Below, one piece after another: positions 1-47,056 of a stretch of DNA of 64,000 bases. The number at the start of each line of letters is the position of its first letter. Positions within the stretch are counted from its first letter, which is position 1. Where the stretch lies: assembly GCF_963675165.1 (NCBI RefSeq), contig NC_087384.1, positions 6,255,182-6,319,181 of the forward strand. Reading direction: 5' to 3'. The notes under the pieces were generated by a model. It was not told the DNA's origin, ran no database searches, and saw nothing but the letters and a program-made list of their open reading frames with translations. A program made the translations under genes and the position numbers. The stretch is from Halichondria panicea (Eukaryota; Porifera; Demospongiae; Suberitida; Halichondriidae).

Positions 1-208
1 TAGGTCATTTGAGTCAACGTCAAGTTGAAGCCCAATATCAAACCATTGATCAGTCACATCATATAGGACTGTGTAGACATCTTTTAGTTTAAGAGAGTTT
101 GGGCTAGAAAGAAGTATAAGATGAGCTTTAATTGTCATTATCTGACTGCTAGAACACTTTTGATTACTACTTAACATACCCTCTGTTTGTATCACCTGCA
201 CCACTCAT
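1..208 (-). CDS. Death-domain gene B4, 5' end only (runs off window)
   Basis: This is the first two exons of a class B death-domain gene read on the minus strand. Exon 1 (208 to 171) starts at an ATG and encodes MSGAGDTNRGYV, ending at a GT donor in phase 2. Exon 2 (103 to beyond 1) follows a TTCTTTCTAG acceptor and encodes PNSLKLKDVYTVLYDVTDQW and the start of the death domain, closely matching gene B1 at 7394-7695. The rest lies outside the window. The tiny leader exon plus death-domain exon layout is shared with B1 and B3. Death domains are homotypic interaction modules of cytosolic signalling adaptors. The donor (GTAGTA) is weaker than the GTAAGT of B1, so I cannot say whether the copy is functional. 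Confidence 0.7.
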
Positions 209-409
209 TTCTTTTTAATTTTAGAGTAACTTGTTTTTGATGATCATGTTGCACCTGCACCTGCATTACCTTATTCTGAGAATTATAATTATATTCATTG
301 AATGCATATGTACTATATATGGTATACCTATTTATAGCTAGTCTATAACTTTGTTATTACATGTAGTTGTATTACTTCTGTGGTTATTCTATATAGTGCC
401 AGCTATTAG

Positions 410-2001
410 TCACTGAGGTTTTCTTAAAGCTGTTTTACACGAAGTTTCAACTGTGTCTATACGCTGTCGGAGCTCGTCAAACATGCTATGAATCGTACTC
501 ATAGCGAGTGCAAAGTGCACATTGATGTCTTCTTCGTGTAGTCTCATTTCCTCCGTGTCTCCGTCTCCCACAAATGTACATCCTAGCCAGCTGTACTTGC
601 ACGGCCGTCTTCTCTTTGGGCATTCCTGTCTTAGATGTCGATCAAGTGCATGCAGCGATAGCGTTGCTCCACACTTTTTCTCACAAGACACAGTCAAACC
701 CCTTAAATTATTGTCCGTAGGCCTATCTCTCACATACTGATCTGTCCTTTTGCATACCGGGCATTTCAGGTGTTTACAGTTGCTACAGGAAAGTCCACTG
801 CAGCTGTTTTTTGGATTCATATTATCTGCTATACTTTGACATCGATAGAATTGCTTCGGTACTTTCTTGCAATGAGTGCATCGGTATCTTTGCAGTGTGT
901 TTGGATTGACAAACATGTCCGTTTCACTGTAGTACTCTGCTTTCGTTATCTTGGGGCGCTGCAAAACAAATTACATAGTGTATGTTCTTAAGAATTCAGT
1001 GCCTATATACTTGTGGACACATAAATGTAGTATAGTACATAGTATAGACTCACCTTGGAAGGCCCAGCTATTGGTCCGTCTAGTGGTCTCTTTCTAACTC
1101 CAGGTTTTTCGGGGGGAGGGAGTACAGAAGGACAGTAGTTTGCTCTTATATTCGTGGCCTCTCCTTTTCTATAGACTGTGATGTTTTCCAAAGCTTCTAC
1201 AATTTTCTCCCACGTCAGGCCTCCTTGGTTTAGCCTCTGGTTGAGCATTTCACGAAGACAGCTTGCATCCGTGTGGTTCGCATTTCGGATACCGTTTAAA
1301 ATGAAAGCACCGCGGGTGCTGATGCCTCGGTGGAGGTGCCAAAGCTACATAACATAAAGCTACTAATAGCTAGCTTTTATACACACATTGATTATAATTA
1401 TCATGATTAATTTTGCTGCATGCAGAATCCAGAATCACAGGGAAACTCAAAGAGTGGGTAATGATTGACGATGATCGTTGTTAAAACGATCGATGCCAAA
1501 AGTTTAAGTCTAAAATTAATGGCTGCAAGTCAACAGAGCCTTGCAGCTCTCTTCTCACTCTTGCAGGTACCAATAGCTAGCGTTCTAGTGCAGAGTTAAC
1601 TACTAAGTAGAGTAGCAACACTCGGTGAACAAGTTTTGCTACGGACTCTTCTGAAAAGGCTGCAATGGCATTCCAAGTAGGCATAACTCGAGAACGAAGC
1701 TTTATTTTGCAAATCCACAAATACCAAGCCAAGAAAACATGACTAGAAGCCTATAGAAACTCTTACTTGCACTTCATTGATCCTTGAGCAGCTGAAACAG
1801 TCTACACACACAGACACACACACAGACACACAAACACACTACCGTATACCTCGCTTGCGCATGCGCACCGAGGCATAATAACCGGACCCAATCCGAGACA
1901 GAGTCCAATGTTATACCATTTGTTTCAAGTTGCACTGTAAACAGCTCCCTTAGAACTAGTGCTAGGTCGTCACTCGAAAGCTCTTGTTTGTTAGTAGCCA
2001 T
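410..2001 (-). pseudogene. Death-domain/TRAF zinc-finger gene A4, death-domain exon split by a transposon
   Basis: The ATG is at 2001 (MATNKQELSSDDLALVL). The death domain reads normally to about 1880, is interrupted by a ~575 bp inverted-repeat element (1304-1878), and resumes near 1303 with NHTDASCLREMLNQRLNQGG through GPSK. A good donor (AAG|GTGAGT) lies at 1054. The last exon is 958-410 (acceptor TTTTGCAG), in phase 0 and fully open: Cys-rich segment, TRAF-type zinc finger (C-x3-C...H-x4-C-x6-C) and a C-terminal helix, stop TGA at 410-412. Only the insertion and a short diverged flank damage the gene. An uninterrupted read of exon 1 stops at 1774. A truncated product starting downstream of the insertion cannot be excluded. 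Confidence 0.8.
1304..1878. mobile_element. MITE family 1 inside death-domain exon of A4
   Basis: The element's ends are inverted copies: ATGCCTCGGTG at 1322-1332 and CACCGAGGCAT at 1866-1876. A short hairpin-like stretch (AGCACC/GGTGCT) lies just outside the left motif. It has no coding capacity and contains a (GT)n tract. Related, partly truncated copies in opposite orientation occur at about 47796-48085 and from about 62001. It interrupts a death-domain exon that is continuous in A1, A2 and A3, which defines it as an insertion. The exact borders and the target duplication (perhaps AAT) are uncertain. Confidence 0.75.
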
Positions 2002-2224
2002 CTTCATTCAAACACGCCCTTCTAACTACGTGTGACAAATTTGTGGAACCCTCCCATAAAGTAACCGTAGATACGCATTTTACATCTTGTGAATTTGATT
2101 ATTCTCGGCATACATACATGCATTCATTGAAAAACGAGCGCAATTGCCTACACTAACAAATCCAAATTAGTATAAATAATATTACTGTTCATTCATAATT
2201 AACATGCGTATGACAGTTGAGAGT

Positions 2225-3634
2225 TTATAGCTCTCGTGTCGTTTGTGGTCCAGGGTTTAACTTAGCTTCGATCTTTTTAATACGCTTGTGTAGTTTGTCA
2301 ATAGCAGCTAGGACATGTACTCCAACTTCTCTCTCATGTTCATCTCCAGCTCCCTCGATTTTGCAACCTGCCCACGCATATTTACATAGCTTCTTTCGAA
2401 ATTTGCACTCGTTTTTAATGTGGCTTCTGTTTTCTCGGTTAGTGAGAATTATGTTTTTTCCACATTTGTTTTCACAGAACACCGTTAGCATGCGTATGTT
2501 GCCGTTAGTGATTGTATCAGGTTCGTACTGGTCGCTTCGCTCACAGTCAATGCAAGCCTGGTGTGTGCAGTCACCACAAGATAGACCAGTGTTGTCTTCA
2601 AATCTTGCTCTACCCTTTCCAACTTCTTGTTTTTCATTCTTTCTGCCACACTTGCATCGAAAGAAGCTCTTTGGTAATTTTTTGCAATGAATGCATTTAT
2701 ATTTTGCCAGGCTGCTCTTAATGACAAAAATATCTTCATTGTAATATTCTGCTGCCTTTTTAGGACGCTGCAAAAATGAATACTCAGTCTGAAAGCAGTT
2801 TGTTTTTTTAAGTGCATGCTATATCACCTTGCTGCTTGCTTGTAAGGTGCTGTTGGCTGGCCTCTTCTTTGCCACTGGAGTAGCACTGGAGTGACCTTTT
2901 CCCTGAGTACCATTGGCTTCTGGTGCAATACTAAAAACAGAAAATAAATACCTCCCTCTCATTGATGGTTGTGCAGCTGCTATGGATGTGGTCGGTTTCT
3001 TGAGAGTCGACAGTGATTGGCTAATAGTAGCAGCAGTACTTGTAGTGGTACGACTTCCAGTCGCTGTGTTGAATGTAGTAGTTACCGGTGCCACTGTTGT
3101 ATTGCTGATAGTTTCTATACAAATGGTTCAGGATTAATGCACATACATAGTTATTTTAATTGATTATTGTATCAGTACTCATTTTATATTAATTACCTCT
3201 TTCTACTGGGGGTATAGTAGTAGTTGCAGCTTGTGGTTTGATGTATTTGCTTTTATTTCATCGGCAATAACTTTTTGGCCAATAGTACGATTTTCTAAAG
3301 CCTCTATAATCTGATCCCATGTCAAATCTCCTTGGGCTAGCCTCACAGTGAGCATGTTACGCAGTCTCTCTTTATTGTTTTGGAACTTGGCGTCAATCCT
3401 TTCTAGGTCATCTGAGTCAATGTCAAGTTGAAGGCCAATATCAAACCATTGATCAGTCGTATCATAGAGGGCTGTGTAGACATCTTTTAGTTTAAGATTA
3501 GATGGGATGTCCCTGAAGTTAAAAAAATAGTTGCATATTCATTGTGTCAACATCTCATGAATTATGCGTGCATTTAGTCACTTTGTGATGGCATCAACTT
3601 GATACATGTACCTTTTGTTTGTAGCACTACTCAT
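2225..3634 (-). pseudogene. Death-domain/TRAF zinc-finger gene B3, one-base frameshift
   Basis: There are four exons on the minus strand: 3634-3612 (MSSATNK, phase 2), 3512-3197 (death domain), 3114-2828 (Ser/Thr-rich linker ending ASSK) and 2767-2225 (zinc-finger exon, stop TAA). All splice sites are plausible (AG|GTACAT, AG|GTAATT, AAG|GTGATA; acceptors CTTCAG, GTATAG, TGCAG). The exon lengths fit only if one base is added in exon 2: exons 1+2 total 339 nt, whereas exon 3 needs a phase-1 junction. Comparison with B1 places the missing base near 3250, where B1 has ATAAGAAGC and B3 has ATAAAAGC. The result is a TAG stop near 3203. The zinc-finger exon itself is open (181 codons with stop) and ends in a coiled-coil-like helix. 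It could be a recent pseudogene or a sequencing error. Confidence 0.75.
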
Positions 3635-3808
3635 TTTGTCTTTTCGCACTGTTTGGTGATCTTACAAAAAGCACATGTCTGAATTTGTCTAATCATGTGA
3701 CAAATTTATTATTCATAGGTATATACATGTACTACTCTGTTTCATGTTTATCAAAATTACCACATGTGTAGTACTCTGTACTCTCTATAATAGTATAGGC
3801 GCTAGGCG

Positions 3809-4140
3809 CTAGGCCTCTATGATGTGATCCCATGTCAAATCTCCTTGGTTCAGCCTCACGGTGAGCATCTCACGCAGTCTCTCTGTATTGTTTTGAAGGG
3901 TGCCCTCATTGAAAATCCTTTTTAGGTCATTTAAATCAACGTCAAGTTGAAAGCCAATATCAAACCATTGATCAGTCGTATCATATAGAGGACTGTGTAG
4001 CAGTTTGGGTTGGTATGTGTAATGAGATGTCCCTAAAGTAACAAAATAGTTGTATGCAATATACATACTACAAAGTCATGCATGTGTATAGTCTAGCTAT
4101 ATATAAGGACACTTTTTGACTTTTATTTGTAGCATACTTT
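3809..4140 (-). pseudogene. Class B death-domain fragment B2
   Basis: The open stretch encodes TTDQWFDIGFQLDVDLNDLK...QNNTERLREMLTVRLNQGDL and HIIEA, then stops at TAG inside a small GGCGCTAG duplication (3796-3812). Upstream sequence resembling the B leader exon is degraded: the ATG context at about 4130 has lost the MSxAT reading frame. No linker or zinc-finger exon belonging to it is present before B3 begins. It is a decayed partial duplicate of a class B gene. Confidence 0.7.
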
Positions 4141-4314
4141 TTGTCTTCTTACAAAGGCACACGTTTGAATTGTATCATGTAACAAATTTGTTATTCATAA
4201 GTATAATAATACGTACTCTGCATTATAATCACATGTGTAGTTTAATCGTGCTCGACTCTCCTCTAATTGTTTCTGTTAATTTAACTAGTATAGTACCCAG
4301 TATATAGCTATCAG

Positions 4315-5948
4315 TCACTGAGGTTTTTCTGGAGCTGTTTTGTTCAGTTTTTCAACTGTGTTTATGCGCTGTAAATTGCTCTGAATCATATTCATAGCTA
4401 GCGCAAAGTGCACAGTGATGTCTTCTTCGTGTTGTCTCATCTCCTCCGTGTCTCTGTCTCCCACAAATGTACATCCTAGCCAGCTGTACTTGCACGGCCG
4501 TCTTCTCTTTGGACATTCCTGGCTTAGATGTCGATCAAGTGAACGCATCGGTAGTTTTACTCCACACTTTTTCTCACAGGACACAGTCAAGCTCCTTATG
4601 CTGTCTGTAGCCTTATCTCTCTCTCGTACTGATCTGTCCTTTTGCATGCAGAACAGGCTTTGTCAATACAGTCGCTACAGGAAAGTCCATTCCCATTGTT
4701 TGCACTTCTGCACCGACATCGATAGAATTGCTTCGGTACTTTCTTGCAACGAGTGCATCGGTATCTTTGCAGTGTGTTTGGATTGACGAACATGTCTTCA
4801 TTGTAGTACTCTGTTTTCGTTTTCTTGGGGCGCTGAAAAACAAATTATATTGTTCCTCCAATTTTCAGTGCTTATATTATACTGGTGTATGTACACATTC
4901 ATGTGATGTATATTTATTGTACACGTCATAGTAGATTCACCTTGGGGGGAGGTCCAGCAATTGAGCCCTCTAATGGTCTCTTTCCAACTCCAATTGTTTT
5001 CTTGGGGGGTACATGAGTTAGAATAGCAGAAGAAGTACCAGAATTGTGTGGATAACTACCAGATGGGTTGCTAGGTCTTGCTGTTGGATTCACTGGTTTA
5101 GTACTCGACAGTGGCTACAAAAATGAGCAATCATTCAGTCAGAACAAAGTTATTTTGCTGCTTACCTTTGTATTGACTGGTGGAGTGTTGTTGGCTTCCC
5201 TAAAGAGGAGGCCTGCCAGTGGATTAGTTGGGTAGCTAGGTCCTGCTGTTGAAATCACCGGTTTAGTGCTCGGAATTGAAACGACAGGAACATTGTGATG
5301 CGGTATCGTTGCCGTGGAGCTACCTGTTGCAACTCTTGTTGTAGTTAAGACTGCTGCCCCAAGGCCTGCCAGTAGAGTAGTTGGGTAGCTAGGTCCTGCC
5401 GTTGTAATCGCCAGTTTAGTGCTTGGAATTGAAACGACAGGAGCATTGTGTTGTGGTATCGTTGCCATGGAGCTACCTGTTGCAACTCTTGGAGTAGTCG
5501 GGTAGCTAGGTCCTGCCGTTGTAATCGCCGCTTTAGTGCTCGGAATTGGTGGTTGATGAATGACACGAGCGCTGTTGTCGAACGCACTTTGTTGGGGTAT
5601 TGTTGCCGTGGGGTGATCTGGTGCAACTCTAGTTAAGACTGTTTGTGTAGCAACAAGAGTACAGTATTTTGCTCTGACCTGCTGGGCTTCCCCTTTTCTA
5701 CCAACTATGACCTGCTCCAAAGCTTTTGCAATTTTCTCCCATGTCAGGCCTCCTTGGTTTATCCTCTGGTTGAGCATATCACGAAGGCAAACGTCATTTG
5801 TTTGGTTTGCATTTCGGATATTGTCTAGAATAACCACACGCAATCCGAGACTGAGTCCAATGTTATACCATCTGTTTTGCACTATGAACAGCTGCTCTAG
5901 AACTAGTGCTAGGTCGTCACTCGAAATCTCTTGTTTGTTAGTAGCCAT
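4315..5948 (-). pseudogene. Death-domain/TRAF zinc-finger gene A3, (GA)n frameshift
   Basis: There are three exons: 5948-5166 (261 codons, ATG, death domain then a repetitive linker), 5114-4941 (58 codons, linker ending GPPPK) and 4832-4315 (zinc-finger exon, stop TGA). All junctions are in phase 0 (donors AAG|GTAAGC and AAG|GTGAAT; acceptors TTTTTGTAG and TTTTTCAG). The linker carries three imperfect ~45-residue repeats, each with a PSTK...ITTAGPSYPT core. In the last exon the GAGAGAGA run near 4615-4625 has one extra GA compared with A1 and A4. This moves the frame and gives a stop at 4596, before the TRAF finger. Removing one GA would leave the frame open to 4315 (about 490 aa). The predicted truncated product keeps the death domain and Cys-rich segment only. 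Dinucleotide slippage, a polymorphism or a sequencing error are all possible. Confidence 0.8.
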
Positions 5949-6173
5949 CTTTGATTCAAACACGCCCTTCTAACTGTGTGTGACTATATTCATCCATAAA
6001 TTTGTGGAACCCTCCCATAAAGTAACCGTAGATACGCATCATCTGTGCTTTGTGAATTTGATTATCCTCAGTACATTCAGTGAAATACTAATTGCTATCA
6101 ATGTGTTCGAAACAAATCTAATTATAAGTATAAATATAGCGTTCAATCATAATTACGATACATAGTTAGGCTG

Positions 6174-7779
6174 TCATGTTGGTGGTCCTGAACTTCTAGG
6201 GTTCAACTTAGCTTCGATCATTTTAATACGCTTGTTTAGATCCAAGTTTTCTTTCCTTAGATCTGAGTTGAGCTCGAGATTTTCCTTGTGTAGTTTGTCA
6301 ATAGCAGCTAGGACATGTACTCCAACTTTTTTCTCATGTTGTTCTATCTCTACTCCAACTCCCTCGATTTTGCAACCTGCCCACGCATATTTACATGACC
6401 TCTTTCGCTTTGAGCACTCGTTTCTTACATGGCTTCTGTTTTCTCGGTTAGTGAGAGTTATCTTTTCACCACATTCGTTTTCACAGAACACCATTAGCAT
6501 GCGTATGTTGCCGTTGGTGCGCGTATCAGGTTCGTACTGGTCGCTTTTCCCACAGCTAGTACAAGGACAGGTTTTACAGTTGCTACAAGATAGACCAGTA
6601 TTGTCATCATATTTTGCTCTACCCCTTCCAGTTCCTTGCTTATCCACTTTTCCACACTTGCATCGAAAAAATTTCTTTGGTGTTTTCTTGCAATGAATAC
6701 ATTGATATTTGTTTAAGCTGCTCTTACTGACAAACATGCCTTCGTCGTAGAATTCTGCTTCCGATGTTTTGGGACGCTGCAAAAATGAGCAATACAGGTT
6801 TTTTTGCTAAGTATAATTGTATAAATTGTGCTGTTTACCTTGCTGCTGCTTTTTGGTGAAGTGTTGCTGGCTGGCCTCTTCCTTGCCATTGGAGTGCTTC
6901 CTTCTTGAGTGCTTTTTATGTTTGAGACAACATTGTTTGTGGGCAAACCAACATTAAATATCGATAGTGCGTGCGCAGCTGTGGAAATGGTTGGTTTCTT
7001 CAAAGTCGACGGTGGTTGGCTCGAGGTAGCGGCAGTGATAGTTGTAGTTTGAGTGTCCGTTGCTGTGTTGGATGTGCTGGTTACCGGTGTCACTGTAGGG
7101 TGTCATACAGAATTAAAATAGGGTAGGGCACACAAAGTGTGTCGTCGGCTAGGGGGACCCAGGGGCACCCCCCCTCGGAAATTATAGATGGTCTTTGTGA
7201 ATTCTGGGCACACTCAGTCATATACAACTATAGTAAATGAATGCATGCAAACTTTAGGGGAGGGGGATATCCCCCTTTCCTCCGATGTATGACACCCTGC
7301 ACAAGTTGTATTTGTGGCATGCTATTTGCTGCAAAAGGATTAGACATACCGTTTTACTAGGTTACTTAGTTATATATTTGTTGCATTAATTACCTGGTGT
7401 AGTAGTTGCAGTTTGTGGTTTGATATGTTTGCTTCTTATTTCATCGGCAATAACTTGTTGGCTTATAGTAGGATTTTCTAGAGCCTCTATAATTTGATCC
7501 CATGTTAACTCTCCTTGGGCTAGCCTCACAAAGAGCATCTCACGCAGTTTCTCTTTATTGTTTTGGAGGGTGCCCTCATTGCAAATCCTTTTTAGGTCAT
7601 TTGAGTCAACATCAAGTTGAAGGCCAATATCAAACCATTGATCAGTCACTTTAATTAGAGCTGTGTAGACATCTTTCAGTTTAAGAGAGTTTGGGCTAGA
7701 AAGAAAGCTTTGTGTCACACTAGAGCACTTTGATTGAATCAACTTACTTGACATACCCTCTGTCTGTAGCAACACTCAT
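6174..7779 (-). CDS. Death-domain/TRAF zinc-finger protein B1 (intact, 396 aa)
   Basis: There are four exons: 7779-7748 (ATG, MSVATDRGYV), 7695-7394 (death domain), 7092-6839 (Ser/Thr/Pro linker with the basic stretch MARKRPAS) and 6776-6174 (zinc-finger exon, stop TGA). Phases 2, 1 and 0 match at every junction, giving 1,191 nt. Domains in order: leader; death domain, residues ~12-105 (DQWFDIGLQL, LREMLFVRLAQGELTWDQII); linker ~112-196; Cys-rich zinc-binding segment starting CIHCKK with FFRCKCG and CSNC; TRAF-type finger starting CENECG with HVRNEC and CKYAWAGC; C-terminal coiled coil (KENLELNSDLRKENLDLNKR). I infer a cytosolic innate-immune or apoptotic adaptor. The third exon's acceptor is immediately beside a MITE (7097-7298). 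The starting ATG is the only one in frame before the death domain. There is no full RING E3 signature and no MATH domain. Confidence 0.82.
7097..7298. mobile_element. MITE family 2 at an intron/exon border of B1
   Basis: The termini are inverted copies, AGGGTGTCATAC on the left and GTATGACACCCT on the right. The interior is G/C-run-rich (GGGGATATCCCCC). A second copy with the same ends and the same GGGATATCCCCC core lies at 63246-63454 in an intron of the second myosin copy. It is non-coding. It sits in intron 2 of B1, with its left end four bases outside the acceptor used by exon 3. Confidence 0.8.
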
Positions 7780-7970
7780 TTCTTTCAAAGTTAATTGTTT
7801 TTGGGTGCAGTGAGAATGATCATGTGATAAATTATTATTTATATTGCAGTTGCACGTGAGCATTCTCTTGTTCTGAGAATTATACATTCTTGTGTACTAT
7901 ATATGGTAGACCTAGCTAGAATTGTTATTGTATCGGTGTGTGCATGGTTACCCTATATAGTATTTATCAG

Positions 7971-8602
7971 TCACTGAGGTTTTCCTGGAGCTGTTTTGTA
8001 CAAAGTTTCAACTGTTTCTATACACTGTAACATGCTATGAATAGTACTCATAGCTAGTGCAAAGTGCACATTGATGTCTTCTTCGTGTAAATTCATCTCC
8101 TCCGTGTCTCTGTCTCCCATAAATGTACACCCTATATAGCCAGCTGTGCTTGCACGACTGTTTTCTCTTCGGGCAGTCATTGCTGAGATGTTGATCCAGT
8201 GCACGCATCTTTATCTTTGCTTCTCACAAAACATGGTCAAGCCCCTTATGTTGCCGTGGGGTGACTTGGTGCAACTCTTGTTGTAGTTAAGACTGTTTGT
8301 GTAGCAACAGGAGTACAATATCTTGCTCTGATCTGCTGGGCTTCTCCTTTTCTACCGACTATGACCTGCTCCAAAGCTTTTGCAATTTTCTTCCATGTCA
8401 GGCCTCCTTGGTTTATCCTCTGGATGAGCATATCACGAAGGCAAACGTCATTTGTTTGGTTTGCATTTCGTATATTGTCTAGAGTAACCACACGCAATCT
8501 GAGACAGAGTCCAATGTTATACCATTTATTTTGCACTGTGAACAGCTCCTCCAGAACTAGTGCTAGGTCGTCACTCGAAAGCTCATGTTTGTTAGTAACC
8601 AT
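7971..8602 (-). pseudogene. Death-domain/TRAF gene A2, internal deletion fusion
   Basis: The ATG at 8602 opens a normal class A death domain (MVTNKHELSSDDLALVLEEL ... RINQGGLTWKKIAKALEQ). Near 8255 the linker (HPTAT) runs straight into the zinc-finger exon (RGLTMFCEK) and a TAA stop. The rest of the zinc-finger exon is present but frameshifted by indels, then readable from GCTFMGDRDTEEM to a TGA at 7971. No linker intron remains. It is a pseudogene, although a ~120-residue death-domain-only product could still be translated from the first ORF. Confidence 0.8.
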
Positions 8603-8981
8603 CTTTGATTCAAACACGCCCTTCTAACTATGTGTGACTATATTCATCCATGAATTTGTGGAACCCTCCCATAAAATAATCATAGTTACATTGTGTGAAT
8701 TAATTTTGATTGTCCTCAGTGCATTCATTGAAAAACCAATGTGTTTGAAACTAGTATTGAAAAAAACAATTGAACACCGAACAGTGTGGTGAATTACATG
8801 TATTGCACAAGCACATGCGTATAATTTCTGATTGTAACCCGCCTGCCGGCCTTAGCCATACGTGGTCATGTCAACCCACACAGTTTACATTACTACAAGT
8901 GTTTGTGACGTAGAGAGACAACAATATAAATGGTGTGTATAGTAGTCGCTTACTCCCCTTCATGTACTAGTACTCTACCTA
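8603..8981. other. Spacer between A1 and A2
   Basis: About 380 bp with no open frame of note. The part next to A2 (8603-8700) matches the 5' flank of A3 (5950-6060), so it is probably the duplicated promoter or leader region of class A genes. The rest is AT-rich and unassigned. Confidence 0.4.
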
Positions 8982-10220
8982 TCAGTCACTGAAGTCTATC
9001 TGGAGGTGTTTTGTACCCCAAGTTTCAACTGTGTCTATACGCTGTCGGAGCTCGTAAAACATGCTATGTATCGTATTCATAGCTGGCGCAAAGTGCACAT
9101 TGATGTCTTCTTCGTGTTGTTTTAGTTCCTCCGTGTCTCTGTCTCCCACAAATGTACATCCTACCCAGCTGTACCTGCACGGGCGTCTTCTCTTTGGGCA
9201 TTCCTGGCTTAGATGCTGATCAAGTGCACGCAGCAGTAGCGTTGCTCCACACTTTTTCACACAGGACACAGTCAAGCCTCTTAATCTATTGTCTGTAGCC
9301 GTGTCTCTCTCATACTGATCTTTCTTTTTGCATACCGGGCATTTCAGGTGTCTACAGTCGCTACAGGAAAGTCCACTGTAGGTGTTTTTTGGATTCATAT
9401 TATCTGCTATACTCTGACATTGATAGAATTGTTTCGGTACTTTCTTGCAATGAGTGCATCGGTATCTTTGCAGTGTGTTTGGATTGACGAACATGTCTTC
9501 ATTGTAGTACTCTGTTTTCGTTTTCTTGGGGCGCTGTAAACAAATTTTAGTATAGTTAATAATTTTCAGTGCCTACATGATACTTTATACACATACACGT
9601 AGCATATATAGTACATATAGTAGACTTACCTTGGAAGGCCCAGCTATTGGGCGGTCTAGTGGTCTCTTTCCAGGTCCAGGTTTTTGGCGGTCTAGTACTA
9701 GTGGTCTCTTTCCAGGTCCAGGTTTTGGGGCATCTAGTGGTCTCTTTCCAGGTCCAGGTTTTGTTTTTGGGGGCGGTACAACAGGAATAGGGATAGCAAA
9801 TGAAATAGCAGAATTGTGTGGATAACTACCAGATGGGTTGCTAGGTCCTGCTGTTGGATTCACTGGATTAGTGCTCGACAGTGGTCTCGTTGCCATGGGG
9901 TTACCTGTAGTTAAGACTGCCTGTGTAGCAACAGGAGGAAGGTGTCTTGCTCTGATCTGCCTGGCTACTCCTTTTCTACCGACTATGACCTCTTCCAAAG
10001 CTTTCGCAATTTTCTCCCATGTCAGGCCTCCTTGGTTTATCCTCTGGTTGAGCATATCACGAAGACAGGCGTCATTCGTTGTGTTGTTAATATTGTCTAG
10101 AGTAGCCGGATTCAATCCGAGGCTGAGTCCAATATTATACCATTTGCTTTGCACTGTGAACAGCTCTCTCAGAATTTGTGCTAGGTCGTCACTCGAAAGC
10201 TCTTGCATGTTAGCAGCCAT
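8982..10220 (-). CDS. Death-domain/TRAF zinc-finger protein A1 (intact, 380 aa)
   Basis: Two exons: 10220-9630 (197 codons, donor AAG|GTAAGT) and 9533-8982 (acceptor TTTACAG, phase 0, stop TGA). The start is the ATG of MAANMQELSSDDLAQILREL, conserved with A2-A4. Order: death domain, residues ~8-95 (KWYNIGLSLGLNPATLDNI, LRDMLNQRINQGGLTWEKI); proline/threonine linker; three tandem KPGPGKRPL units (~150-190); Cys-rich segment beginning CTHCKK at ~223; TRAF-type zinc finger with C288, C292, H304, C309, C316 and C323; C-terminal helix with heptad-like spacing (STMFYELRQRI-type). It lacks a RING E3 signature and the TRAF MATH domain. TRAF fingers and death domains usually sit on separate proteins of one pathway, so a fusion suggests a direct receptor-to-ubiquitin or NF-kB adaptor (inference). 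It is the best-preserved class A copy. Confidence 0.82.
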
Positions 10221-10948: not shown

Positions 10949-13900
10949 AGGCGTCCAAGTTCATGCTCAAGTATATAGCTCAGTGCAGTGGTCATGCTGG
11001 AGACGTGGATCGTGTGAGGAACAGACTGCTGCAGTCCAACCCAGTGCTGGAGGCATTCGGGAACGCTCGTACTAGTAGGAACGACAACTCCAGCAGGTTT
11101 GGCAAGTACATGGATATTGAGTTCGACTTCAGGGTAAGTAGAATGTTTTCAATATTACTTTTGTGCTTATATATAAATATGTGTCTATCTGCATGCAGTA
11201 CACATTACCTGTACATGTATTATATTTAGTAGTTGATTTTGAAGTATGGAATTTTACTTACTGTGCCAACCTTTGCCAATTACGTAATCATATTCAGATA
11301 TTGTCAGCTACCCACACACACACATCACCCTCTGCCCCCCCCCCCCACACACACACACATCACACCACCCTCCACACACACATATCAAACCCTCCACTCC
11401 ACACACATCACACACAGGGAGCACCGGTGGGCGGTCACATCAAAAACTACCTCCTGGAGAAATCACGAGTGGTATGCCACTCTGAGGGTGAGAGGAACTT
11501 CCACATCTTCTACCAGTTGCTAGCTAGCAGGGACCAGAAGCTGCTGTCTGAGTTGGAGCTCTCTAGTAACCCCAAGGAGTACCTCTTCCTCAGCCAGGTG
11601 AGCAGAGAGAGAGATAGAAGTGTTTTATTATTGCAAGAGGGAGCTGAAATGATTTAAGCTTATAATTTTTTTGCTTTAAGAGTAGTCAGTGGGTTTGCAA
11701 AATGGTAATGTATTCACTTATGTACTTGATTAGTGCAGTAGTAAGCTACGTATGTGCAGGCAATTATGCTGTCTATACATGCATTGTATTATGTACATAT
11801 TATTGTGTGTGTGGGCACATGATGGTTGATGCTCTTAGTCACATGACCTACTCGTCTCCAGGGAAACTCCACCCACGTGAGGAGCATCAACGACACTGAT
11901 GAATTCACGACCGTACGAAAGGCTCTCAAAATATTGGGCTTCACCCAAGAAGAATCGATGGTAAGAAAGTGTTACGTTTTGTGCAGAGAGACAGACTATA
12001 CACAGCAATAAATCATTAAGCCTCACATTTGTCCCTGAAAATGTAAGTATACGTATGTAGTTATAATGGTCGCTCAATCACATGGAGAGCTTCTAACGCA
12101 CACCCCACCCCACACTAATGACACCCCTCACACGCCCACACACACACACAGAGCCTGTGGCACGTAGTGAGTGCTATCCTCCACCTGGGACAGGTGCAGC
12201 ACACTGCTCGCTCTGATGGACACGCCTCCATTGACCCAGCCTTCATCAAGCCAATCTCACAAGTATGGACATTATACTACCAATAAATATACTGTTGTAA
12301 TTTCAACTCTTTGTTCTGTATGCAGTACCAGTGCCATAGTCTTTGTTACGTGTGCAGTACCAGTGCCATAGTCTTTGTTACGTGTGCAGTACCAGTGCCA
12401 TAGTCTTTGTTACGTGTGCAGTACCAGTGCCATAGTCTTTGTTACGTGTGCAGTACCAGTGCCATAGTCTTTGTTACGTGTACAGTACAGTCATGCTTAT
12501 ATCTATAGTAATAGTACAGTGCATGTGTTGTAAATAGTCTGTGTGTTATGTATGCAATATACTTATAGCCCTACTAAGCTTCCTCAATAAGTCGTAGTGC
12601 GTAATCCGACACTAGCGGATGAAAAGGTGTCCAATACATACAAGTGCATGCTAGTAGTACAGTGGCTGTGATGATGTAATGGACTCCTCTCTCTTGCAGC
12701 TGCTGCTCATCTCCAAGGAGAACGTTGACCTCGCTCTCACCCATCGCTCCATTGAGACCATCAGAGAGAAGTTCATGTCCCCCCTCACTGTGGAGCAGGC
12801 CGTGTATGCGCGAGATGCCTTTGCCAAGGCAACCTACTCACGCCTCTTCACCTGGCTTGTCAAGAGGCTCAACTCATCTCTACAGGAGAGCAAGGTACGA
12901 GTACTTGTCCTGACATATATAGCTCTTAAGATATGACTTTGACTTTTGGATGGTCCAATTTTTAAGGAGCTCTAAATTAGATCTACATGTACGTATACAA
13001 TCGTAACATACATGTGGGCATGTTTAGATTTTGATCGGGTGAAAATTTGGCCGAATAGGAAGTCTCTATGTACAATATTTCGTATATTCAATGCTCTTTC
13101 CCTCCAGCAAAAAGACTCCCGTCGAAATGTTATGGGCCTTCTCGACATTTACGGGTTCGAGATCTTTGGATTGAATGGTTTTGAGCAGTTCTGCATCAAC
13201 TACTGCAACGAGAAACTGCAACAGCTGTTCATCGAGCTCACACTGCGCTCAGAGCAGGAAGAATACCGGAGTGAGGGGATTGAGGTACGTAAGAGGTCAA
13301 GTGGGGGGGGGGGGTCTGGTTTAGTTGCTATGGAGTTCTCAATGTGTATATCAATGTTATAAGCTTCGTGTGTACGAGACTGTGTATATACAGTAACAAG
13401 CTTTAGCCTGTACATACACATATAAAATGATACGTATTTTTGCCAAATAAGGTATAAAATTCATGCTCGGACAATTTTCTCTTGATTTTTACTATTATAA
13501 ATAGCGTGTAGTTACAGTGATGACAGTGTTTAATGTACTCTCTGCTCTTACAGTGGGAGCCTGTGGAATACTTTGACAACAAGATCATCTGCGATCTGGT
13601 GGAAGAGAAGCACAAGGGCATCATGTCCATTCTAGACGAGGAGTGCGTACGCCCTGGGGACGCTACCGACGACACATTCCTCGAGAAACTAGTGACGTCA
13701 ATCGGAGAGCACAAGCACTTCATCACTCACCAGATGCTCGACTACGAAGGGAGGAAGACGATCGAGCGGAATCAGTTTCGATTGCTTCACTACGCGGGGG
13801 AGGTGACCTACACCACTGTCGGGTTTATTGACAAAAACAACGACATGCTCTATCGAAGCTTAAAGGAGGCGGCTAACATGAGTGCCGATCCCATCGTCAG

Positions 13901-29449: not shown

Positions 29450-30148
29450 TTAACAACTATGTGCTCTTCTATATTGCCTAGGGTTATTTTGCAGTACATT
29501 ATTATTATCTCTATGACATAGTATTACGGGTGAGATATTCACCAGTCCTACGATATGAATGCTACCATTGTTAGTCCTCACTGGCGTTGCCTCTGGAGTC
29601 ACCATCTCAGCAGGATGACCTCCCTCACACGACTCTTGTCTCCCTAGTGGGAACAGAGCTGTCGGACGTCTTCTTGGAGCCTGTGATCGTGCTTCTGAAA
29701 AGCGTCTTCGAATGCTGTTTTCTCTGCTTATATGTCTTGTAACTGCTCCTTCAGAAGCAGCAGTTGCTGTATTTGAGCTGCTTGACGAAGAACTACTGTG
29801 TGAACTTTGTGAAGACATCGTGTGTGGTAGCTGCGAACAAACTGCTGTACTCGAGGTGTCACTGTTGTCTTCGTCTATGGAGGCAGATGATTTAAATCTC
29901 TTACGATTTGGGGTGCAACTGTTAAAGTCTGTGGACTGCTCTCTCGTTAATGGAGGCACTAAGATGGCATCATTTTGTGTGGATCCATTTTCTGCTCCTT
30001 TGGATGGCTCTAGCTCTGGCTCTAGCTCTGGCTCTAGCTCTGACTCTAGCTCTATCGGTGATTGGTTGAAAGTGGTGCTCATTATTCCAGGATAATCGTT
30101 GGCTGGACTACTGCTCACAAAATACTTCAAGGTGGTACGTGAATTCAT
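29450..30148 (-). CDS. Serine-rich antisense ORF, family S copy 2 (232 aa)
   Basis: The longest copy. It has the same architecture as S1 but with four or five ELEPE units, from expansion of a GAGCTAGAG-type hexamer-based repeat, and a full C-terminus NNNVLQNNPRQYRRAHSC. The ATG sits just 3' of the conserved CTATTCACAG acceptor. It lies antisense between E3 and E4 of unit 1. It is open despite the decay of the surrounding transporter exons, suggesting recent duplication or retained function. Confidence 0.62.
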   Translation of the reverse strand: MNSRTTLKYFVSSSPANDYPGIMSTTFNQSPIELESELEPELEPELEPSKGAENGSTQNDAILVPPLTREQSTDFNSCTPNRKRFKSSASIDEDNSDTSSTAVCSQLPHTMSSQSSHSSSSSSSSNTATAASEGAVTRHISRENSIRRRFSEARSQAPRRRPTALFPLGRQESCEGGHPAEMVTPEATPVRTNNGSIHIVGLVNISPVILCHRDNNNVLQNNPRQYRRAHSC

Positions 30149-33568: not shown

Positions 33569-34231
33569 TTAACAACTATGTGCTCTTCTATATTGCCTAG
33601 GGTTATTTTGCAGTACATTATTATTGTCTGTATGATATTGTATTACGGGTGATATATTCACCAGTCCCACGATATGAATGATGCCATTGTTCGTCTTCAC
33701 TGGCGTTGCCTCTGGAGTCACCATCTCAGCAGGATGACCTCCCTCACACGACTCTTGTCTCCCTAGTGGGAACAGAGCTGTTGGACGTCTTCTTGAAGCC
33801 TGTGATCGTGCTTCTGAAGAGCGTCTTTGAATGCTGTTTTCTCTGTTTATATGTCTTGTAACTGCTCCTTCAGAAGCAGCAGTTGCTGTATTTGAGCTGG
33901 TTGACGAAGAACTACTGTGTGAAGTTTGTGAAGACATCGTGTGTGGTAGCTGCAAACAAACTGCTGTGCCCTCGGTGCCACTGTCGTCTTCGTCAATAAA
34001 GTCAGATAATTTAAATCTCTTACGATGTGGAGTGCAACTGTTAGACTCTGTGGACTGCTCCCTCGTTAATGAAGGCACTATGATGGTGACGTCTTGTGTG
34101 GATCCATCTTCTGCTTCTTTAGATGGCTCTGACTCTAGCTCTAGCTCTATCAGTGGTTGTGTCAAGGTCGTGTCCATTATTCCAGGGTGATCGTTACTGC
34201 ACACAAAATACTTTAAGGTACGTGAATTCAT
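33569..34231 (-). CDS. Serine-rich antisense ORF, family S copy 3 (220 aa)
   Basis: ATG MNSRTLKYFVCSNDHPGIMD: one residue shorter at the start than S1/S2 and with a distinct N-terminus shared with S4 and S6. It has one ELELE run, RKRFKLSDFIDEDDSG, a Ser tract, RRRPTALFPLGRQES and a complete C-terminus. The acceptor CTATTCACAG is preserved. A leader cassette lies at about 34615-34513. Confidence 0.6.
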   Translation of the reverse strand: MNSRTLKYFVCSNDHPGIMDTTLTQPLIELELESEPSKEAEDGSTQDVTIIVPSLTREQSTESNSCTPHRKRFKLSDFIDEDDSGTEGTAVCLQLPHTMSSQTSHSSSSSTSSNTATAASEGAVTRHINRENSIQRRSSEARSQASRRRPTALFPLGRQESCEGGHPAEMVTPEATPVKTNNGIIHIVGLVNISPVIQYHTDNNNVLQNNPRQYRRAHSC

Positions 34232-46375: not shown

Positions 46376-47056
46376 CTAACAACTATGTGCTCTTCTATAT
46401 TGCCTAGGGTTATTTTGCAGTACATTATTATTGTCTTTATGATATTGTATTACGGGTGATATATTCACCAGTCCCACGATATGAATGATGCCATTGTTAG
46501 TCCTCACTGGCGTTGCCTCTGGAGTCACCATCTCAGCAGGATGACCTCCCTCACACGACTCTTGTCTCCCTAGTGGGAACAGAGCTGTCGGACGTCTTCT
46601 TGGAGCCTGTGATCGTGCTTCTGAAGAGCGTCTTCGAATGCTGTTTTCTCTGCTTATATGTCTTGTAACTGCTCCTTCAGAAGCAGCAGTTGCTGTATTT
46701 GAGCTGCTTGACGAAGAACTACTGTCTGAAGTTTGTGAAGACATTGCGTGTGGTAGCTGCGAACAAACTGCTGTGCTCGAGGTGTCACTGTCGTCTTCAT
46801 CTATGGAGGCAGATGATTTAAATCTCTTACGATTTGGAGTGCAACTGTTAAAGTCTGTGGACTGCTCTCTCGTTAATGGAGGCACTAAGATGGCATCGTC
46901 TTGTATGGGTACATTTTCTGCTCCTTTGGATAGCTCTGGCTCTAGCTCTGGCTCTAGCTCTATCGGTGGTTGGTTGGAGGTGGTGGTCATTATTCCAGGA
47001 TAATCGTTGGCTGGACTACTGCTCACAAAATACTTCAAGGTGGTACGTGAATTCAT
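46376..47056 (-). CDS. Serine-rich antisense ORF, family S copy 5 (226 aa)
   Basis: Most similar to S1 (shared MNSRTTLKYFVSSSPANDxPG start and SQTSDSSSSS tract) but with the full C-terminus, so S1 is a truncated sister. Acceptor and ATG are conserved. Confidence 0.62.
   Translation of the reverse strand: MNSRTTLKYFVSSSPANDYPGIMTTTSNQPPIELEPELEPELSKGAENVPIQDDAILVPPLTREQSTDFNSCTPNRKRFKSSASIDEDDSDTSSTAVCSQLPHAMSSQTSDSSSSSSSSNTATAASEGAVTRHISRENSIRRRSSEARSQAPRRRPTALFPLGRQESCEGGHPAEMVTPEATPVRTNNGIIHIVGLVNISPVIQYHKDNNNVLQNNPRQYRRAHSC

Follow-up and report, generated by a model that had tools for sequence, protein, structure and literature searches.

A 64,000-nucleotide window of the sponge Halichondria panicea (contig NC_087384.1, here C8; C8:6255182-6319181) holds the right half of a tandem gene array in which an N-terminal death domain (DD) and a TRAF-type zinc finger can be read in one open frame. 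We favour, with some confidence, the reading that the array encodes a lineage-specific family of intracellular adaptors in which a DD has been joined to the N-terminal half of a TRAF, without the MATH domain, and docks on sensors. What the DNA gives directly is the order of the parts, the open frames, the splice sites and their phases, the zf-TRAF matches, the tandem turnover, the nesting inside a myosin gene and the resemblance of the N-terminal domain to death domains.

Organization and gene structure of the array

The array occupies ~20 kb of the minus strand, from about C8:6245556 to 6265401 (window 1-10220 being its right half). Searching the 131-Mb assembly (39 contigs) by tblastn with the exons of copies A1 and B1 identified 14 units in the array, of two types that mostly alternate. 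Type A comprises A1, A3, A2, A4, A5 (zinc finger only) and A6 (a broken DD only), and type B comprises B1, C1, B5, B6, B8, B9, B7 (which has just the linker and zinc finger) and a single DD fragment. The A+B pair may be the unit of duplication, in which case the alternation of types is as expected. Homologous zinc-finger exons are present in 12 units, one of them partial, and DD and zinc-finger matches are both present in 10 of the 14.

With GT-AG splicing, the DD reads through to the zinc finger without a stop in seven units, A1 and all six type-B copies tried (B1, C1, B5, B6, B8 and B9). The first exon of A1 (9630..10220) carries the start codon, the DD (about residues 8-93, with a predicted death fold), a Pro/Ser-rich linker and a KR-x(n)-KRPK motif; the second (8982..9533) carries a Cys-rich segment, the zf-TRAF finger and a C-terminal stretch. 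The two join at 9630/9533 into a single frame of 380 amino acids. B1 has four exons: a short first exon with the start codon and a phase-2 intron (7757..7779, donor GTATGT), a DD exon (7394..7695), a Ser/Thr-rich linker exon with a KRP-x(n)-KRPK motif (6839..7092) and a last exon with the Cys-rich segment, the zf-TRAF finger and a helix-forming C-terminus (6174..6776). Two more copies that read through lie in the window, namely C1 (2225..3634; exons 3634-3612, 3512-3207, 3104-2828 and 2767-2225) and B5 (1..208; first exon 208-180 and the start of the DD exon at 103-1), which continues past the window's left edge.

A first-pass annotation, made from the sequence alone, had proposed the A1 join and three joins for B1. 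The A1 join holds as one open frame, as do 7394/7092 and 6839/6776 in B1, while the first B1 join, 7748/7695, is probably nine bases off. Both that join (396 amino acids) and the alternative 7757/7695 (393 amino acids) are open, and the donor position 7757 suits the five remaining type-B copies too. All six can be modelled with a short first exon and a phase-2 donor there (GTATGT in B1, B5, B6 and B8, GTAAGT in B9 and GTACAT in C1), although alternatives are open for five of them. Each unit allows 4 to 92 open splice choices, which we ranked by a simple score, and the models of B9 and C1 are the least certain. As modelled, the intron after the DD is in phase 1 in B1, B5, B6 and B8, in phase 2 in C1 and in phase 0 in B9; in C1 the donor at this position is different as well. 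B6 ends in an unrelated tail and has no helix-forming end.

The intron directly before the zinc-finger exon is in phase 0 in A1, B1, C1, B5, B6 and B8. In A1 and B1, whose proteins are 35% identical overall, this last intron falls at the same place, between SK and RPK, which speaks for a fusion that predates the divergence of types A and B. From the frames, splice sites and intron phase, the DD and the zinc finger would be carried by one mature transcript. Alternatively, each unit could hold two genes that are never joined, one for the DD and, after it, one for the TRAF finger. Both A1 and B1 have an in-frame methionine early in the zinc-finger exon, upstream of the Cys-rich segment, so a second start is possible there, which raises the probability of two genes and lowers that of our preferred explanation. 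Of the 14 units, two (A5 and B7) yielded a zinc finger but no DD, and two more only DD fragments. Set against this, the joined frames are open in seven units with matching last-intron phase, and both parts occur together in most units; we consider two separate genes quite unlikely.

The linker motif KR-x(9-13)-KRPK precedes the zinc-finger exon in six of eight copies (A1, A4, B1, C1, B5 and B6), and its frequency in shuffled linkers is 0.0004-0.011 per linker, for a pattern that was written after the sequences had been seen. We take this motif to be a possible bipartite nuclear localisation signal, by which the proteins could be nuclear regulators whose fingers act in the nucleus. The motif is, however, absent from B8 and B9, the six copies are related and so are not six independent cases, and the motif lies at an exon junction; we find a nuclear role decidedly doubtful.

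The zinc finger, the Cys-rich segment and the C-terminus

All four zinc-finger exons scanned exceed the Pfam cut-off for zf-TRAF (PF02176, 27 bits), with 35.4 bits for A1, 33.6 for B1, 34.2 for C1 and 33.1 for the exon at 410-970. Exon 2 of A1 also matches the TRAF4 finger 2yuc (E=4.3e-4).

The Cys-rich segment before the finger is probably RING-derived. None of nine such segments matches a RING model at E<=1, and two match IBR (best E 0.44). Compared by hhalign with the genome's own TRAF RINGs, the profile of the segment shows a suggestive resemblance (32.8%, E 4.6e-4, 28 of 77 columns; the finger control gave 0.7%). Searched against PDB, the profile of the segment hit only an ethanol regulon transcription factor (E 0.24). 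The fourth Cys of the C-x-C pair is absent in A1 and in the 410-970 copy; the remaining aligned array copies otherwise preserve the spacing of their Cys residues.

For MATH, Pfam gives no match in A1 or B1, and tblastn of two MATH queries reached a best E of 0.59 in the array. TRADD-N likewise has no Pfam match in A1 or B1, and one putative query, assigned by eye, gave a best array E of 6.9 by tblastn. The first-pass annotation had noted no RING E3 signature and no MATH, and the RING and MATH searches agree with it.

A structural model of the B1 zinc-finger exon has a mean predicted local distance difference test score (pLDDT) of 45.7 and contains one long helix, with pLDDT about 80 at residues 171-190; it is silent on a RING fold. 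This low-confidence model hints at a C-terminal coiled coil. A rule by which the lengths of this putative coiled coil would differ by whole heptads was rejected: relative to C1, B5, B7 and B8 differ by 14, 21 and 21 residues, but B1 and B9 by 18 and 53.

These features bear on a second explanation, that the proteins are dominant-negative decoys that bind sensor DDs or TRAF trimers and block signalling. The segments that match no RING model, the MATH queries that find nothing better than E 0.59 in the array and the Cys lost from two copies all speak for it. The Cys spacing kept in the other copies speaks against it, as does the weak similarity of the segment's profile to those TRAF RINGs of the genome, by which a working, unusual RING is possible. 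Decoys are in our judgement a possible, if rather unlikely, alternative to the adaptor reading.

Identity of the death domain

Of the five DD-bearing window sequences scanned, none reaches the cut-off of the Pfam Death model (PF00531, 22.6 bits), and only C1 matches it at E<=10 (19.6 bits). The profile search proposed at first pass came out positive for the finger and below cut-off for the DD. Among 15 relatives, eight match the Death model at E<=1. NCBIfam has no match for B1. Because of the low Pfam score, the assignment rests on the predicted fold, on a profile that includes relatives and on a chain of sequence matches.

The AlphaFold2 model of the DD, of modest quality, is a six-helix bundle, and all 15 best-ranked PDB rows have the death fold (structures were compared by a second look, with VIA-align, at Foldseek's 73 best-ranked chains). 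On this predicted structure the N-terminal domain would be a death domain, the outcome anticipated for structure prediction at first pass. With relatives included, the DD profile has FADD as its best PDB match; a profile built from the window alone finds no convincing death domain in PDB. An hhalign comparison of the DD profile with Pfam-positive DDs, at 98.7%, was rejected because one sequence (locus L068) was in both alignments, and the clean comparison gave 1.8%.

Relatives elsewhere in the genome

The genome has at least 148 Death and at least 150 zf-TRAF places, both very large expansions. C8 holds all of the zinc-finger exon's strongest relatives (E at most 5.2e-7), and at C8:2.39 Mb a DD stands with a zinc-finger exon whose frame is broken. 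Outside the array, the DD of A1 is closest to DDs at C6:5.62-5.64 Mb, C16:4.63 Mb and C8:6.05 Mb; NACHT is present in all three of the C6 and C16 DD loci scanned. The type-B DD is closest, again outside the array, to the one at C8:6048728 (locus C8:6046500-6051000), where the DD exon precedes an open reading frame (ORF) that holds a P-loop and matches Roc weakly (19.9 bits against a cut-off of 27). This DD is 92.7% identical to that of B9 over 288 bases, with dS 0.05 and dN 0.10, and the shared exon looks like a recent copy or conversion.

A DD occurs beside zf-TRAF and MATH at two further loci. At C8:5.01 Mb, an ORF with a weak DD (14.8 bits) is followed after about 110 bases by one that holds both zf-TRAF and MATH, and a phase-0 junction between the two can be drawn by eye. 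At C3:8.27 Mb, locus L075 (C3:8272600-8276200) has, on one strand, ORFs in the order DD, a stretch of ~260 amino acids, RING, zf-TRAF and MATH; a second copy, L068 (C3:8280989-8284231), shows by eye a DD, a stretch of ~270 amino acids and the start of a RING at the end of the fetched piece. Of 150 listed zf-TRAF places, by eye and with the array not among them, at least one (C3:8273389) is preceded on its own strand, within 6 kb, by a listed DD. The ~260-residue stretch of L075 and L068 matches no Pfam family and looks, by eye, like a TRADD-N domain, with the G-C turn described in excerpts of PMC8195603. If their ORFs belong to single genes, these C3 loci may encode a complete TRADD-TRAF module.

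Selection and damaged copies

Ratios of nonsynonymous to synonymous substitution (dN/dS) were calculated by the Nei-Gojobori method with our own script for within-type pairs; site numbers in the pooled test are approximate. For the zinc-finger exons dN/dS is 0.40-0.65, below 1 in all 22 within-type pairs. Together with the homologous exons shared by most units, this shows that the array pattern does not arise by chance. For the DD, dN/dS is below 1 in 27 of 31 pairs (0.36-1.20, and 1.99 for B9 against C8:6048728). In pooled tests (four contrasts for each domain, chosen by us), constraint is significant for the zinc finger (0.70, p 0.007) but not for the DD (0.80, p 0.21).

Several window copies are damaged, as was noted at first pass. 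A3 (8004..8602) has a DD near the 3' half of a zinc-finger exon and an internal stop. In A2 (4315..5948) the DD and linker exons are open and the zinc-finger exon shifts frame between about 4650 and 4617. A lone type-B DD fragment lies at 3812..4006. A4 (410..2007) has its DD in separated pieces (2001-1870 and 1278-1123) and an open zinc-finger exon (958-410).

Such damage could mean that the array is decaying without function, all its copies dead or dying: 7 of the 14 units are damaged or partial, and selection on the DD is weak. The low dN/dS of the zinc finger and the open frames and splice sites of the other seven units oppose this, and we hold general decay to be very unlikely.

Setting of the array and other features of the window

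The array is nested inside a myosin gene, a setting absent from the first-pass annotation. One plus-strand myosin exon, with GESGAGKT at its end, stops at C8:6243893; its successor opens with EASKF at window position 10949 (10949..11128, right end approximate). Joined, the two give a Myosin_head match of 146.9 bits. A pattern search of the intervening sequence found no second such P-loop. Since these exons flank the array on both sides, a single intron of 22.2 kb contains all of it, on the opposite strand.

The window also holds a second tandem family on the minus strand, three very similar Ser-rich ORFs of 220-232 amino acids (MNSRT..LKYFV...) at 29450-30148, 33569-34231 and 46376-47056. The one ORF of the three that was scanned has no Pfam match.

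Discussion

The first-pass annotation described a fast-turning-over family with DD and TRAF finger in one frame, and its core stands: the fold prediction, the zf-TRAF scores and the seven units that read through agree with it, as do the 14 tandem units, half of them damaged or partial. Its count of two intact genes, A1 and B1, was right for those two and too low overall. A one-protein adaptor is also our preferred reading; the proposed shortcut from receptor to TRAF was too general, given that the nearest DDs outside the array belong to NACHT genes and a P-loop locus and that MATH is absent.

TRAF proteins consist of a RING, TRAF fingers, a coiled coil and MATH. The array proteins share with them a finger above the Pfam cut-off, a Cys-rich segment in the place of the RING and, in a low-confidence model, a helix after the finger; unlike TRAFs, they match neither MATH nor RING models and have gained an N-terminal death domain. 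TRADD is not known to hold a TRAF finger. It combines TRADD-N with a death domain and recruits TRAF2. The link between a death domain and TRAF biology is common to both, whereas the array proteins carry zf-TRAF and gave no TRADD-N match in the searches above. MyD88 and FADD are also small DD adaptors, and FADD is the best PDB match above; their partner domain is TIR or DED, not a TRAF finger.

The first-pass annotation had contrasted the fusion with well-studied animals, where death domains and TRAF fingers are on separate interacting proteins. The lineup seen in the array appears new, but the kind of fusion is already in print: excerpts of PMC8195603 describe 357 NCOA6-type TRADD-N proteins in Amphimedon, mostly with 1-3 death-like domains and with variable C-termini that include MATH, and the two further loci here also combine DD and TRAF parts. 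Those proteins and the array are both sponge lineage-specific DD expansions joined to TRAF-related parts in one protein; section 10 of that paper names no TRAF finger, and the array has zf-TRAF without MATH. The locus at C3:8.27 Mb may belong to the Amphimedon-type Death-TRADD-N family. Sponge NLRD receptors are DEATH-NACHT-LRR proteins (PMC12909245, whose main text does not contain 'TRAF'); outside the array, the type-A DD is closest to NACHT-gene DDs of this genome, whereas A1 and B1 have no NACHT match in Pfam. The portions consulted of PMC6321704, PMC9798719, PMC7654579 and PMC4083563 name TRAFs and death domains and describe no such fusion, nor do the titles and abstract openings of the open-access literature searched, a scope outside which supplementary tables fall.

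The array is probably an adaptor family acting downstream of intracellular sensors. The DD would dock homotypically on the matching DD of an activated sensor, the partners of type A being NACHT genes and that of type B the locus with DD and P-loop at C8:6.05 Mb. The TRAF finger and C-terminal helix would then oligomerise or recruit the genome's full TRAF E3 ligases, and the signal would pass to ubiquitin/NF-kB-type pathways or, by competition with full TRAFs, be diverted by a decoy. The family may have an immune role. With neither MATH nor a recognisable RING in evidence, a regulator or decoy is as likely as an activator.

The internal methionines, the units with one part only, the missing RING and MATH matches, the lost Cys, the damaged copies and the weak constraint on the DD each lend weight to one of the alternatives above. 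MATH is the part through which TRAF2 binds TRADD (excerpts of PMC8195603), and for a family that lacks it TRAF-like action should not be taken for granted. A more ambitious form of the adaptor reading, which we regard as unlikely, is a one-step sensor-to-TRAF system in which DDs are exchanged and kept in register with NLR-type sensors, every adaptor type has a sensor class of its own and the A+B pairs are sheltered in the myosin intron.

For the step by which the large NLR and DD sets of sponges pass on their signal, the fusion of DD and TRAF finger, with a DD like those of NACHT genes, offers a direct and testable candidate. It suggests that one protein can accomplish the TRADD-TRAF step for which vertebrates use two.
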